Source: Natrinema salifodinae (lineage in GTDB: Archaea; Halobacteriota; Halobacteria; Halobacteriales; Natrialbaceae). Taken from it: a stretch of DNA of 64,000 bases. The notes below the pieces were generated by a model. That model was not told where the DNA came from. It saw only the letters and a program-made list of their open reading frames with translations, and made no database searches. The stretch's first letter is position 1; each line of letters starts with the position of its first letter. Positions 7,755-53,681 of the stretch are shown here, in pieces. A program made the position numbers and the translations under genes. Location of the stretch: positions 451,491-515,490 of the forward strand of contig NZ_FOIS01000003.1 in NCBI RefSeq assembly GCF_900110455.1, read 5' to 3'.

Positions 7755-8195
7755 ATGCCAAACGATAGCACGTCCGCGGAGGAATCAGAGCGGGATCCGA
7801 CGGACTCGTTCGACCTCGAGCGCTCCGAGCGGGTCCGCGTCGGCGTCACGCGCGGCGAGCGGAGCCTCGAACTGGGGCCGCCGCGGGACTTCCCCGACCG
7901 GGCCGACGTCGCGGTCCGACCGAAATCGGACGAAGCGGACGAAGGTGACGGTGAGAACGGCGAGGACGACGCGGCGGACAAGGGCGGGGCTCGCCTGGTC
8001 CTCAGTATCGACGCGATGGCCGGCGACCACGGCAGGGGCTACGTCGACGCGGAACTGACGCCAAGGGAGGCCCGTGCGCTCCGCGATCGGCTCGACGAGA
8101 CGGTCCGCTGGATGATCGGCTCCGACGCCGAATGCGACTCCGATCGAGACGTCGGCAGCAGTGGCGGTGCCGGCCGCACCGATCGTCGAGACTAA
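7755..8195 (+). CDS. Acidic hypothetical protein
   Basis: A 146-residue soluble, strongly acidic protein. A low-complexity Asp/Glu/Gly stretch in the middle (about residues 55-75) separates an N-terminal part from a more ordered segment (RLVLSIDAMAGDHGRGYVDA and ELTPREARALRDRLDETVRW). The latter reads like a short beta hairpin followed by a helix, as in small haloarchaeal proteins carrying a Pro-Arg-Glu-Ala helix start. No known domain is recognised. It ends 66 bp from the convergent CBS gene. Confidence 0.5.
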   Translation: MPNDSTSAEESERDPTDSFDLERSERVRVGVTRGERSLELGPPRDFPDRADVAVRPKSDEADEGDGENGEDDAADKGGARLVLSIDAMAGDHGRGYVDAELTPREARALRDRLDETVRWMIGSDAECDSDRDVGSSGGAGRTDRRD

Positions 8196-8261
8196 CGAGT
8201 CGACTCGAAACGGACGGTGCGGACAGCGCGACGGGCGAACCGTCGACCGCTCCGCGGCGGC

Positions 8262-8669
8262 TTATGTCTCCGGGCTGGGCGACTCGACGCGCGAGATGTA
8301 GCCGGCCAGATCCGAGGTCGTGACCATGCCGATGACGCCCTCGTCCTCGTCGATCACGGGGAGGTGGTGGAAGCCGTGTTCGATCATCACGTCCGCCGCG
8401 TCGCGGATGCCGTCCTGTGCCGCGGTCGTGACGACGTTCGTGGTCATGTACGTCGAGACCGGCGTCTGATCTTTCGGCTTCCGTTCGGCGACGATCCGAA
8501 CGAAGTCCGTCGTCGTCAGAATCCCCTCGAGCTGGTTGTCCTCGTCGACGACGATCACCGAGCCGACCCCGTTGTCGAGCATCGTCTGCGCGGCGTCCTC
8601 GACGAGCGCGTCCGGCGCGACCGTGTGCAGCGACGTCGACATGACGCGAGCGACGAAAATATCCTCCAT
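8262..8669 (-). CDS. CBS-pair domain protein
   Basis: A 135-residue protein made of two CBS repeats (about residues 6-60 and 72-128), the module that binds adenosyl ligands such as AMP, ATP or SAM. Typical motifs are VEDAAQTMLDNGVGSVIVVD followed by EGILTTTDFVR, then DAADVMIEHGFHHLPVIDED and IGMVTTSDLAGYI. There is no fused enzyme or HTH, so it is a stand-alone ligand sensor whose target is unknown. I chose the ATG at 8669 because a TTATAAT element lies about 25 nt upstream of it; a TTG three codons earlier is unlikely. Confidence 0.9.
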   Translation of the reverse strand: MEDIFVARVMSTSLHTVAPDALVEDAAQTMLDNGVGSVIVVDEDNQLEGILTTTDFVRIVAERKPKDQTPVSTYMTTNVVTTAAQDGIRDAADVMIEHGFHHLPVIDEDEGVIGMVTTSDLAGYISRVESPSPET

Positions 8670-48163: not shown

Positions 48164-50827
48164 TTATCCGAGGATGACGACCGCCGACTCGGTCTCCAGC
48201 ATCTCGCCCTCGCCGGAGTAGGTCCGCTCGTACTCGACCTCGAACAGGTCGTCCTCGAGTTCCTCGTCGGCGACGCGGAGCACGTCGGCCTCGTCGTCGA
48301 TCTCGTAGTCGCCGCTCTCGATGCCGCTGTCGATCTCGCCGACCTTCGAGCCGAACTTCGGCCCGAGCGTCGAGTAGTCGAGGTCGATCGAGGCGACCTC
48401 GGTCGAGATCTCCGGGGGCTCCTCGAGCACGGTGAGCTCCTGGACGTGCATCACGTTCTGGATCGCGTCCTCGAAGCCCGCGATCGGACCGAAGACCGAG
48501 ACCGACTCGAGGTCGGCGTTCAGCGGTAGCTGGTTCTCGCTCTTGTAGCGGCGCAGCGCGGAGATGACCTCCATGGCCGTCTCACCGGCCTCGAGGTCGG
48601 CCTCGTGACCCTGCGGGGCCGGCCAGTCGCGGGTGTGGATGCTGGTGGCGTCGAGCTCCTCGTCGCCGTCGGCGTAAACGGCCTGCCAGATTTCCTCGGT
48701 CGCGTGGGGCAGGAACGGCGCCCACAGTTCGAGGAAGGTTCGATGGGCCGTCCGCAGCGCGTACTGCGTCGAGGGCTCGTCCTCGCGCTGTTTGGCGATC
48801 TCGAGGTAGTCGTCGCAGAAGGTGTTCCAGAAGAACGTCCGCAGGCGGTCGCGGGCCTTCGCGAACTCGTACGCCTCGAGGTGGGCCGTGAGGTCCTCGA
48901 TCGCGTCGTCGAGTTCGGCCAGCAGCCACCGGTCGATCGCGTCGAGATCGGCGGGCTCGTCGGGCTCGCGCGGCGCGAGCGTGTCGACGAGCTTCGAGGC
49001 GTTCCAGAGCTTGCGCAGGAGCTTCTCGCCCGCGGTCAGGTCTTTCTCCTGGTACGGGAAGTCGTCGCCGACGGCGGCGCTGGCGGCCCAGAACCGGACG
49101 GCATCGACGGGGTACTCCGCGAGCACCTCGTCGGGGGCGACGACGTTGCCCCGCGATTTGGACATCTTCTCGCGGTTCTCGTCTAACACGTGGCCGTTGA
49201 TCATCGTCGCGTCGAACGGCACCTCGCCGGTGTGCTCGTAGCACTTGACGATGGTGTGGAACAGCCAGAACGAGATGATGTCGTGGCCCTGGGGCCGGAG
49301 GTCGAAGGGATAGAGTTCGGGGTTGTCCATCGCGAACTCCTCGGCCTCCGCGTCCCAATCCCAGCCGGCGTTGATCAGGGGAGTCAGCGAGGAGGTCGCC
49401 CAGGTGTCGAAGACGTCCTCCTCGGCGACGAACTCGTCGTGGCCGCACTCGGGACAGCTATCGACGGGGGGCTCGTCCGAGAGCGGATCGACCGGTAGGT
49501 TCTCGCGATCGGCCATGATCTCGTGATCGCAGTCCGCACAGTACCAGACCGGGAACGGGATCCCCGAGTCGCGCTGGCGGGAGATGAGCCAGTCCCACTC
49601 CAGACCCTCGATCCAGTGCTTGTACCGGGTGAACATCTTCTCGGGGTACCAGTCCATCTCCCGGCCGGCCTCGAGGTACTCCTCTTTGTGGTCGAGGATC
49701 TCGACGTACCACTGCTTGGAGACGCGGAATTCGACAGGCGTGTCACACCGCTCGTGGACCTGCACCGCGTGGGAGATCTCCCAGCGGTCGCGCAGGTAGC
49801 CCTCGTCGTCCAAGTCCTCGACGATGGCCTCGCGGGCCTCCTCGGTGGACATGCCCTCGTAGTCGCCCGCCAGGTCGGTCATCGTCGCGGACTCGTCGAT
49901 CGCCACCCGCAGCGGCAGGTCGTGGGCCTGGTACCACTCGATGTCGTTCTGGTCGCCGAAGGTACAGCACATCACGACGCCGCTGCCCTTCTCCATGTCG
50001 ACGCGCTCGTCCGCGATGATCGGCACTTCCTGCTCGAAGATCGGGACGCGGGCGGTCTCGCCGACCAGGTCTTGATTCTCGTCGTCGTCGGGGTGGACGA
50101 AGACAGAGACGCAGGCCGGGATGAGTTCCGGGCGCGTCGTGGAGATGACGAACTCCTCGCGCGGGGCGTCCTCGCCGACGACCTCGAAGGCGATGTCGTT
50201 GAAGTGCGAGCCGCGCTCGTCGTCCTCCATCTCGACCTGCGAGATGGCGGTCTCGCACTCGGGACACCAGATCGCGGGCGCCTTCTTCCGGTACTCGCGG
50301 TCCTTCTCGTAGAGGTCGAGGAACGAGAGCTGCGAGATCCGCTGGACGCGGGGTTCGATCGTCTTGTAGGTGTTGTTCCAGTCGATCGAACAGCCGAGGC
50401 CCTGCATCTTCTCGGTGAACTCGTCCTCGTACTGCTGGCAAACCTCGCGGCAGAGCTCCTGGAACTCGCGGCGCTCGTAGTCCTGGTGGCGGATATCCAG
50501 TTCCTTCTCGGTCAGGCGTTCGCTGGCGATCCCGTTGTCGTCGTAGCCGAACGGGAAGAGCACGTCGCCGTCGGCCATCCGCTGGAACCGCGCGGCGAAG
50601 TCCTGCAGCGTGTGACCGTAGAGGTGGCCCATGTGCAGGCTGCCCGAGACCGTCGGCGGCGGCGTGTCGATCGAGTAGACGGTGTTGGGGTCTCGCTTCG
50701 CGTTGCCATCGTAGGCGTAGACGTCCTCGTCGACCCAGCGTCGCTGCCAGCGGGTCTCGACCGCTTCGGGGTCGTAGTCGCCGTCGAGGCTGGGCTCGTC
50801 GGTCTGTTCCGGGGCGTCCATGCTCAT
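48164..50827 (-). CDS. valS: Valyl-tRNA synthetase
   Basis: A class I synthetase of 887 residues charging tRNA-Val. The HIGH motif is in PPPTVSGSLHMGHLYGHTLQ near residue 57; KMSKS appears in REKMSKSRGNVV near 563; the editing domain lies between them. Zn-type cysteine clusters (CPECE, CADCD, CPECGHDEF) are present. The C-terminal anticodon-binding and acidic tail are normal for haloarchaea. GGTGAG lies about 4 nt before the ATG at 50827, one of the few Shine-Dalgarno-type starts in the window. Confidence 0.97.
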   Translation of the reverse strand: MSMDAPEQTDEPSLDGDYDPEAVETRWQRRWVDEDVYAYDGNAKRDPNTVYSIDTPPPTVSGSLHMGHLYGHTLQDFAARFQRMADGDVLFPFGYDDNGIASERLTEKELDIRHQDYERREFQELCREVCQQYEDEFTEKMQGLGCSIDWNNTYKTIEPRVQRISQLSFLDLYEKDREYRKKAPAIWCPECETAISQVEMEDDERGSHFNDIAFEVVGEDAPREEFVISTTRPELIPACVSVFVHPDDDENQDLVGETARVPIFEQEVPIIADERVDMEKGSGVVMCCTFGDQNDIEWYQAHDLPLRVAIDESATMTDLAGDYEGMSTEEAREAIVEDLDDEGYLRDRWEISHAVQVHERCDTPVEFRVSKQWYVEILDHKEEYLEAGREMDWYPEKMFTRYKHWIEGLEWDWLISRQRDSGIPFPVWYCADCDHEIMADRENLPVDPLSDEPPVDSCPECGHDEFVAEEDVFDTWATSSLTPLINAGWDWDAEAEEFAMDNPELYPFDLRPQGHDIISFWLFHTIVKCYEHTGEVPFDATMINGHVLDENREKMSKSRGNVVAPDEVLAEYPVDAVRFWAASAAVGDDFPYQEKDLTAGEKLLRKLWNASKLVDTLAPREPDEPADLDAIDRWLLAELDDAIEDLTAHLEAYEFAKARDRLRTFFWNTFCDDYLEIAKQREDEPSTQYALRTAHRTFLELWAPFLPHATEEIWQAVYADGDEELDATSIHTRDWPAPQGHEADLEAGETAMEVISALRRYKSENQLPLNADLESVSVFGPIAGFEDAIQNVMHVQELTVLEEPPEISTEVASIDLDYSTLGPKFGSKVGEIDSGIESGDYEIDDEADVLRVADEELEDDLFEVEYERTYSGEGEMLETESAVVILG

Positions 50828-51136: not shown

Positions 51137-52660
51137 TCAGAGCAGCCCGACCAACGGCACGACGCCGAACCAGGCGATGTAGCTCAACGACGCAACCATC
51201 AGCCCGTCGATCCGGGCCGGCATCGCGGCCGGGTCGACGCGCGTTCGAACGAGCCAGGCGATCGCGATCGCGTGGGGGACGCTACCGGAGACGAGCGGAT
51301 CGTAGGCTGCCGGGACCGCGCCGGTGACCTGCAGGGCTAACCCGGCGAGGGCCGCGAGCAGCGCTGCGGCGGTCGCGACCGCCGCGGCTCCGTCGACACC
51401 GAACCGGACGGCGATCGTCTCCTTGTCGGCGGCGCGGTCGGCCGCGACGTCCGGCAGGCCGGCGAGGGTGATCGCCGGGACGATCGACAGCAGGAACGGC
51501 AGTCCCAGCAGCCACGGCGTCGGATCGCGCCACGACCCGCCGAGGAAGACGAACCCACATAGCAGGACGCCGACGCTGTGGGTCGCAGCCACGTCGAGTT
51601 CGCCGAGCGTACGGTAGGCCAACCGCAGGGGCGGCGCCGTGTACCCGAGCGCCAGGCTCGCCAGGCCGCCCAGCAGCGCGGCCGTCGCGAGGAGCGAGCC
51701 GGCGACGAGCGCGAGGACGGCGAGCGCGGCGCCTGCGGCGAGGACGAGGGCGACATAAATGCCGCGACGGAGCGACGCCCGATCGAGGGCGCCGTCGACC
51801 AGCACCCGCGAGCCGCCGGTGAACGGCCCCGCGAAGGTGTTCCGGCGGTCAGTCTCGTAATCGTAGTACTCGTTGCTCAACACGGTCGCCGCCTCGAGGA
51901 AGAAGAGAAAGCAAAAGCCGGCCCAGAAGACCGCCGTAGAGAAGACGTCGCTCGACCCGGTCGCGGCCAGCGCGCCGACGGCGTAGGCGATCCACGCCAT
52001 CGGGTAGAACTGAAGGCGGAGGGCCGTGAGCCACGTCGCGATTCGGCGCTTCGCTCGCGTCGCGGGCGACTCGGGCCCGTCGGCCAGGCTGCGTCCGAGT
52101 TCCCGCGCGTCGTCCAGCCACGCCTGGCGGTCCGCCGAGTCCGAGTCCTCGATCGGACCGACGTTCGTGGCGCGCGTGGTCCGGACGCCCGCGTACCCGA
52201 GGGTAGCGCGCTTGACGGCGTTGGTGCCGGGTCGGCGAAGGATCCAGCGATAGACCCACCCGGGCGTGTCCATCGTCACGATCAGTTCGGCGGTTTTGTC
52301 GTCCAGCAGCTTCCGGCGGCCCGCGCCCTCGCCCTCGTCGTAAAACGAGAACGCGAAGCCGGGGGTGAAGACGCGGTCGAAAAATCCCTTGAGCAACGCC
52401 GGCATCGTCCCCCACCAGTTCGGATAGACGAACGCGAGGTGGTCCGCCCACTCGATCCGCCGCTGGGCCTCGACCAGATCCTCCTCGAGCGGCTGCTCCT
52501 CCGGGCGCTCGGTGCGGACGTGCGGATCGAACTCCATGTCCGCCAGGTCGAGTCGGCGGACGTCGACGCCCGCCTGGCGGGCGCCCTCGACGTACGCGTC
52601 GGCTAGGGCGCCACAGAAGCTATCGGTCCGCGGATGCCCCAGAACGAGCAGGACGTTCAT
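51137..52660 (-). CDS. Fusion: flavodoxin-fold NAD(P)H:quinone oxidoreductase + UbiA prenyltransferase
   Basis: One 507-residue chain. Residues 1 to about 195 are a complete flavodoxin-fold NAD(P)H oxidoreductase of the MdaB/KefF type: VLGHPRTDSFCGALADAYVE binds FMN, and FVYPNWWGTMPALLKGFFDR with GFAFSFYDEG is the family hallmark. From about 210 begins an eight-helix UbiA prenyltransferase with both Asp-rich motifs, SNEYYDYETDRRN and LPDVAADRAADKET, which bind Mg and the prenyl diphosphate. The frame is continuous through the junction (SPATRAKRRIATWLTA). The natural reading is prenyl transfer to a quinone-like head group coupled to its reduction. I do not recall this fusion being described; no menaquinone gene is adjacent. 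Confidence 0.88.
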   Translation of the reverse strand: MNVLLVLGHPRTDSFCGALADAYVEGARQAGVDVRRLDLADMEFDPHVRTERPEEQPLEEDLVEAQRRIEWADHLAFVYPNWWGTMPALLKGFFDRVFTPGFAFSFYDEGEGAGRRKLLDDKTAELIVTMDTPGWVYRWILRRPGTNAVKRATLGYAGVRTTRATNVGPIEDSDSADRQAWLDDARELGRSLADGPESPATRAKRRIATWLTALRLQFYPMAWIAYAVGALAATGSSDVFSTAVFWAGFCFLFFLEAATVLSNEYYDYETDRRNTFAGPFTGGSRVLVDGALDRASLRRGIYVALVLAAGAALAVLALVAGSLLATAALLGGLASLALGYTAPPLRLAYRTLGELDVAATHSVGVLLCGFVFLGGSWRDPTPWLLGLPFLLSIVPAITLAGLPDVAADRAADKETIAVRFGVDGAAAVATAAALLAALAGLALQVTGAVPAAYDPLVSGSVPHAIAIAWLVRTRVDPAAMPARIDGLMVASLSYIAWFGVVPLVGLL

Positions 52661-52766: not shown

Positions 52767-53681
52767 TCACTCGTCGGGCCCGTTATCGGAGTGGGCCCGC
52801 ACCCACAGTTCGCCGATCCGAGAGAGCCTGGTCCGATAGGACTTCCCGTGTTCCTCGCGCTCGATGTAGCCCTTGCCACCGGGGCCCAGGCGGTCGACGT
52901 TGTAGATCACCTTCGAGCGGAAGCTGTCGGTGTACTCCTCGTTGAGTTCGCGGGCTAGCGATTCGGCCAGTTCCGAGACGGAGTCGAACTCGCCGTCCTC
53001 GCCGAGCTTGTAGAGGATGAGTTCCTCGAAGGGCTTGACGTTCGAGAAGGAGGCGACCGGGAGTTCGACGATGTGCTTGCCGTCGATTTCCTTGGCACCG
53101 ATGGTCGTTCCGCGCTCGTCGAACTCGGCCAAGAGGTCGCGGGCGCTCGCCAGGCGGTCTGCGAGCCGGTCGTCCTCGATCCCCGCGGCGTCGTCGCCGT
53201 CCCCGCGGAGGTCCTCGAGCAGCGCGATCTGTTCGCGGAGTTCCTCGGCGAGTTCGGTCTCCAAGTACTTCTCGGGGGCGGTGTAGTAGGTGTGGATCCC
53301 CTCGCGGTCCTCCTGGCGCTCGACCATCAGCGAGTGGGCGGCGTTGGCGAAGGCGAAGCTCACGGTTCGGGGCATCGCGGCGACGTTGACCCAGACCTCG
53401 TTGCCCGCGTCGAGTTCCGCGGTGATGAGTTCGTAGGCCTGCTCGAAGGCCTCGTCGTAGTCGTAGACGTCTTCGAGGACGAACCGTTCGGTCTCGGCGC
53501 CCAGCAGGTTCGTGAAGTCGGTCTCGAGTTTCTCCGAGAGATGCCGCGAGTACTCGACGTTGGCCTCGCTGCCGACGGCCCCCTCCAGTAAGATCACGCT
53601 GTCGACGTCGATCTGATCGCGCACGAGCGGCGCGATCAGCCGGTCGTAGTCGAAGCCGACCGGGACGATGTGGGTTTGCAT
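52767..53681 (-). CDS. CARF-like / winged-helix regulator (HFX_2341, DUF6293 type)
   Basis: A 304-residue protein. Residues 1-140 have a Rossmann-like pattern of the CARF kind: IVPVGFDYDRLIAPLV at the start and NVAAMPRTVSFAFANAAHS near residue 98, in the place of the ligand loop. A helical linker with acidic residues (about 140-185) leads to a winged-helix DNA-binding part (about 215-295, KPFEELILYKLGEDGEFDS). CARF domains usually bind cyclic oligoadenylates or related nucleotides. No CRISPR genes are in the window. A strong TATA (TTTATAAA) lies 25 nt before the ATG. Confidence 0.75.
   Translation of the reverse strand: MQTHIVPVGFDYDRLIAPLVRDQIDVDSVILLEGAVGSEANVEYSRHLSEKLETDFTNLLGAETERFVLEDVYDYDEAFEQAYELITAELDAGNEVWVNVAAMPRTVSFAFANAAHSLMVERQEDREGIHTYYTAPEKYLETELAEELREQIALLEDLRGDGDDAAGIEDDRLADRLASARDLLAEFDERGTTIGAKEIDGKHIVELPVASFSNVKPFEELILYKLGEDGEFDSVSELAESLARELNEEYTDSFRSKVIYNVDRLGPGGKGYIEREEHGKSYRTRLSRIGELWVRAHSDNGPDE

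Follow-up and report, generated by a model that had tools for sequence, protein, structure and literature searches.

UbiA enzymes that take quinones as substrates require the acceptor to be reduced, and what reduces it is usually left open. A gene of the halophilic archaeon Natrinema salifodinae raises the question of whether reductase and prenyltransferase can travel on a single polypeptide. It is located at 51137..52660 (minus strand) of a 64,000-nucleotide window, the whole stretch of DNA analyzed here. From the letters of this window, a sequence-only reading had described an MdaB/KefF-like domain followed without a stop by a UbiA domain with both Asp-rich motifs. We have examined whether the chain is genuine, what its two halves resemble, where else it is found and what it might do.

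A single uninterrupted chain

The reading frame runs from an ATG at 52660 to a stop at 51137 and codes for 507 amino acids. It contains the two domains that had been described, and both are above their Pfam cut-offs. The two halves are joined by a linker (residues 186-209, 52034..52105, minus strand) that is read through and is the least conserved stretch of the chain. No in-frame ATG, GTG or TTG was found by a start codon scan between residues 131 and 220, linker included, and therefore the UbiA half cannot be made separately. Likewise, in six other copies there was no start codon in the 70 codons preceding the conserved R-x-QFxPM that opens the membrane domain. The domain junction, near 52060, is where a stop or frameshift might have been feared, and it is unbroken in 45 distinct sequences, the query included. 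On either side of it identity is maintained and the dN/dS was about 0.1-0.4, so that amino-acid changes are constrained in both parts.

That two genes were wrongly joined in annotation or sequencing is hardly conceivable. The one observation in its favor is a frameshift in the copy of genome G016, and this is located at about residue 249, within the UbiA part and away from the junction. Against it stand the intact sequences from independent genomes, the missing internal start and a homologue annotated as a single protein on a complete plasmid (Roseinatronobacter). The product is a true single-chain fusion, and both of its halves look competent for catalysis. The G016 copy (G016:C3:2955795-2957314; L197 796-2315), split by its frameshift, could be a sequencing error or a case of early decay.

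No description of a Flavodoxin_2-UbiA fusion was found in the open-access literature searched, and within that range the earlier statement that none was known held. In our judgement the two families are known and their arrangement in one protein is new.

The N-terminal flavin domain

Residues 1-185 (52106..52660, minus strand) match the Flavodoxin_2 profile (PF02525) with 135 bits against a cut-off of 27, over positions 1-194 of its 198, i.e., along the whole domain of this NQO1/MdaB/KefF-type family. The sequence matches in the PDB were 4r81, 3lcm, NQO1 and NQO2. In the predicted structure, which consists of two separate folds (mean pLDDT 79, pTM 0.67), residues 1-199 resemble the archaeal NAD(P)H:quinone oxidoreductase 4r81 (Z 19.3) and also NQO1 and NQO2. 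Identity to 4r81, NQO1 and NQO2 was 24-31% across the domain. The motif that had been quoted earlier, PNWWGTMPALLKGFFDR, is indeed found at residues 80-96 (52373..52423, minus strand), with P80, W82, W83, P87, A88, L90, K91, D95 and R96 invariant in the 45 sequences. The complete flavin-site signature, P-x-WWG-x-x-PA-x-LKG-x-x-DR together with GFAF, is nearly invariant in the same set. Fold and signature are thus those of NQO1/NQO2, MdaB and KefF. To our knowledge all known members of these groups are soluble proteins, either free-standing or non-covalent subunits, whereas the flavin domain described here is covalently attached to an integral membrane enzyme.

Flavodoxin_2 proteins can also reduce azo dyes or nitro compounds, or have a regulatory role as in KefF, an accessory protein of the potassium efflux system KefC. 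It is worth considering, then, that the flavin domain might take no part in the catalytic cycle and instead control the UbiA domain, as a regulator or a redox sensor, in the way KefF controls KefC. The KefF structures are indeed close (3l9w and 3eyw, Z about 18). However, both sequence and predicted structure are closer to the quinone reductases, and a flavin-site signature so nearly invariant does not favor a mere switch, making this explanation very unlikely. By these comparisons the domain is of the quinone-reductase type, and NAD(P)H:quinone reductase activity is predicted for it.

The C-terminal UbiA domain

The second half (residues 203-507, 51140..52054, minus strand) matches the Pfam UbiA profile over residues 223-474 with 72 bits against a cut-off of 34.2. 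Both Asp-rich motifs announced by the first description are present and their key residues do not vary among the 45 sequences. The first, NEYYDYETD (residues 263-271, 51848..51874, minus strand), has N263, D267 and D271 invariant, and the second, DVAAD (residues 404-408, 51437..51451, minus strand; PDVAAD at 403-408), has D404, A407 and D408 invariant. The domain therefore belongs to the UbiA superfamily by profile and motifs alike, and its predicted structure has the UbiA transmembrane fold, matching 8djk, 4od5, 6m31 and 4tq4 at Z 22-24. The highest-scoring solved relative, both by profile and by structure, was UBIAD1, the vitamin K2 synthase (8djk, Z 23.6 over residues 203-507), a structural lead shared with other UbiA enzymes, since UBIAD1, the Aeropyrum and Archaeoglobus UbiA homologues and the archaeal lipid synthase were roughly tied. 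UBIAD1 has only 18% identity to the domain and carries no fused reductase. As judged from the profile and the model, the resemblance is one of fold only, and membership of the UBIAD1 family is not assigned.

The domain is about equally distant from MenA, chlorophyll synthase and the archaeal lipid synthase, so that the substrate is not readable from the sequence and a non-quinone acceptor is conceivable. MenA, the 1,4-dihydroxy-2-naphthoate prenyltransferase, shares the superfamily, and the fusion scores weakly against it (about 46 bits, with equivalog cut-offs of 277 and 346), while the fused UbiA domains form a clade separate from MenA. A MenA orthologue was ruled out by these scores, by the tree and by a genuine MenA elsewhere in the genome. 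No match to the fusion was found in PHROGs.

Distribution of the fusion

The domain pair is not restricted to one lineage. We have found 45 distinct intact copies, the query counted, of which 38 are haloarchaeal (nearly all from Natrialbaceae) and seven proteobacterial, and the possibility that the homologues would always be two separate genes can be dismissed. The distribution is patchy. Full-length copies appear in 33 of the 391 genomes sampled for the class, 32 of them in the family of the window and one in another family, and within the genus of the window the fusion is present in 6 of 29 genomes, one with a frameshift in the UbiA part. A scan of genome contigs gave Natrinema, Natronococcus, Natronorubrum and Halovivax, among others, as carriers. 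On the bacterial side, a gammaproteobacterial MAG has a full-length fusion with 49% identity, and Roseinatronobacter sp. S2, an alphaproteobacterium from a serpentinizing spring of pH 12, has a plasmid-borne annotated fusion protein with 44% identity. Both domains are intact and conserved across distances down to about 45% identity.

Searches with a UbiA-domain profile added four fused copies in the class of the gammaproteobacterial MAG and one more in its phylum. The fused matches stood clearly apart, with E values of 1e-90 or better, every other match being 1e-39 or weaker. The only unfused members of this UbiA subfamily that were seen are those of Methanofastidiosia (L061-L063, with a further relative, L073, in genome G411) and one copy, L064, from a MAG titled Deltaproteobacteria. 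L064 is the only bacterial member found that is not fused, and it is short and internally deleted (7977-8513, a 178-aa sister UbiA without the middle of the domain and with the second Asp motif missing). No fused copy was detected by the UbiA-domain profile in 247 genomes of the phylum of that MAG. With every other bacterial member found being fused, the coupling looks selected.

Origin and insertion site

In the UbiA-domain tree the fused copies form one clade (support 99/97), with the unfused Methanofastidiosia proteins as the sister group just outside. The haloarchaeal copies form a clade of their own (100/99) within the proteobacterial ones. The pattern suggests a single fusion event that took place in bacteria, with haloarchaea receiving the gene later by transfer. 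A single bacterial clade was not rejected (AU p 0.27), so this direction of transfer is likely but unproven. The flavodoxin-domain tree, from which two very distant rows were left out, neither supported nor rejected a single clade of fused domains (AU p 0.33), so it is the UbiA tree that supports a single origin.

In the genus of the window the fusion lies between two syntenic borders. Upstream is a gene for an HFX_2341-like protein (52767..53681, minus strand; Pfam HFX_2341_N), present in 29 of 29 members of the genus, and downstream is the valyl-tRNA synthetase gene (48164..50827, minus strand; Pfam class I tRNA synthetase). In several relatives without the fusion the same two genes adjoin each other, separated by about 300-700 bp. 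As both borders are kept adjacent in these relatives, the fusion gene comes or goes as a whole. A more distant copy (65%) in genome G003, a member of the genus, lies away from the shared site (C1:3544045 against C1:2170239) and belongs to a separate clade, which suggests repeated transfer within the family.

Neighboring genes

We have looked at the surroundings of the fusion for a conserved operon that could serve as a clue to the substrate, and this was ruled out, as the neighbors other than a cupin vary between clades. The cupin gene is small and has a single domain. Of 12 contigs compared with the window, 8 have it upstream of the fusion in the same orientation, at a distance of about 50-250 bp (L051 7558-7920, L053 7587-7949 and six others); it was not seen beside the copy in the window. 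No conserved neighbors of the bacterial copies were seen.

Two neighborhoods deserve mention. On the Roseinatronobacter plasmid (L065 11355-18564) the fusion adjoins a sigma-70 family factor with a match to the PhyR-type sigma2 region, and genes for a PRC-barrel protein, a P450, a catalase, a superoxide dismutase and a ferritin-like protein are found nearby, an arrangement similar to a stress island. In Methanofastidiosia (L061 1249-4092, L062 1167-4046) the unfused sister UbiA gene is divergent beside LuxE-like and LuxC-like genes, i.e., an acyl-protein synthetase and an acyl-CoA reductase, an unusual pair in a methanogen that may be a pointer to the ancestral substrate.

Host quinone pathways

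The genome of the window has nine matches to the UbiA family, including a true MenA beside a menC-like gene (395 bits against a cut-off of 264), and it also has MenD. In the same genome there is an apparent second UbiA fusion, in which a heme O synthase-like UbiA domain stands behind a CtaA-like domain (L132 362-1789). By sequence reading the two enzymes joined in this one act in the same pathway, and both its UbiA family and its partner differ from those of the Flavodoxin_2-UbiA fusion.

We have also tested six proteobacterial carriers, some of them draft genomes. MenD was above the cut-off in none of the six, and ubiquinone UbiA was above it in five. A host with its own MenA and MenD, and carriers without MenD that mostly have ubiquinone UbiA, leave no ordinary menaquinone or ubiquinone step for the fusion to fill. 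It occurs beside either respiratory quinone pathway and, by these profile matches, duplicates neither. In the two Methanofastidiosia genomes tested neither MenD nor ubiquinone UbiA was above cut-off, which, together with the LuxE/LuxC-like context, suggests a non-respiratory ancestral substrate.

Proposed reduction and prenylation on one chain

In a study of human UBIAD1 no product was formed when the reductant DTT was left out, and the conclusion drawn there was that menadione must be reduced before it is prenylated (PMC4398444). Since a fused reductase would meet such a need, an order in which reduction precedes prenylation is favored. We propose, with the chances about evenly balanced, that a small quinone is reduced to the hydroquinone by the flavin domain and then prenylated by the UbiA domain. 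The protein would be a membrane-bound bifunctional enzyme, comparable to NQO1 plus UBIAD1 on one chain. Its N-terminal domain, in the cytosol, would reduce a small aromatic quinone without a prenyl chain at the expense of NAD(P)H. The Asp motifs of the UbiA domain are expected on the same side of the membrane as the flavin domain, and the UbiA domain would then attach to the resulting hydroquinone an isoprenoid chain donated by a prenyl diphosphate. A link between quinone redox chemistry and prenylation is the most obvious way to read the fusion. Of the two couplings put forward in the first reading, keeping the head group reduced for prenylation gains from the UBIAD1 data, whereas channelling an already prenylated quinone is less supported, given the respiratory pathways of the hosts.

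NQO1-type enzymes can reduce prenylated as well as small quinones, and this would allow the reverse order. A prenylated quinone, e.g., a menaquinone-like lipid, would first be made by the UbiA half and then kept as hydroquinone by the flavin half, to serve as an antioxidant in the membrane or to enter a later step. The sigma factor, catalase, superoxide dismutase and ferritin-like genes around the Roseinatronobacter copy fit an antioxidant role, but this context was found in one carrier only, the others having unrelated neighbors. Besides, UbiA chemistry on quinones already requires a reduced acceptor, so the reductase is needed first (PMC4398444), and we consider the reverse order unlikely.

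The acceptor might instead be another aromatic or lipid head group, with the flavin domain performing a different reduction in the same pathway. The LuxE/LuxC-like genes beside the unfused Methanofastidiosia sisters, where all quinone pathway markers were below cut-off, and the P450 near the Roseinatronobacter copy would be in line with this. Yet it leaves unexplained why it should be an NQO-type domain that was joined to UbiA and then kept across domains of life, and we find it quite unlikely.

Returning to reduction followed by prenylation, the role would be one of quinone salvage, remodelling or disposal rather than a housekeeping menaquinone or ubiquinone step. A rather doubtful extension is a self-contained salvage enzyme, born of one fusion event in bacteria and later acquired by haloarchaea, that would convert quinones that are free or foreign into prenyl hydroquinones bound to the membrane, apart from the respiratory quinone pathway of the host. 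The presence of the fusion in many relatives and in some bacteria suggests that a quinone-like molecule is reduced and prenylated in one place, and points to a candidate prenylated compound in haloarchaea and some Proteobacteria. A conserved reductase on the same chain, common to Bacteria and Archaea, would be a direct case of coupled quinone reduction and prenylation.
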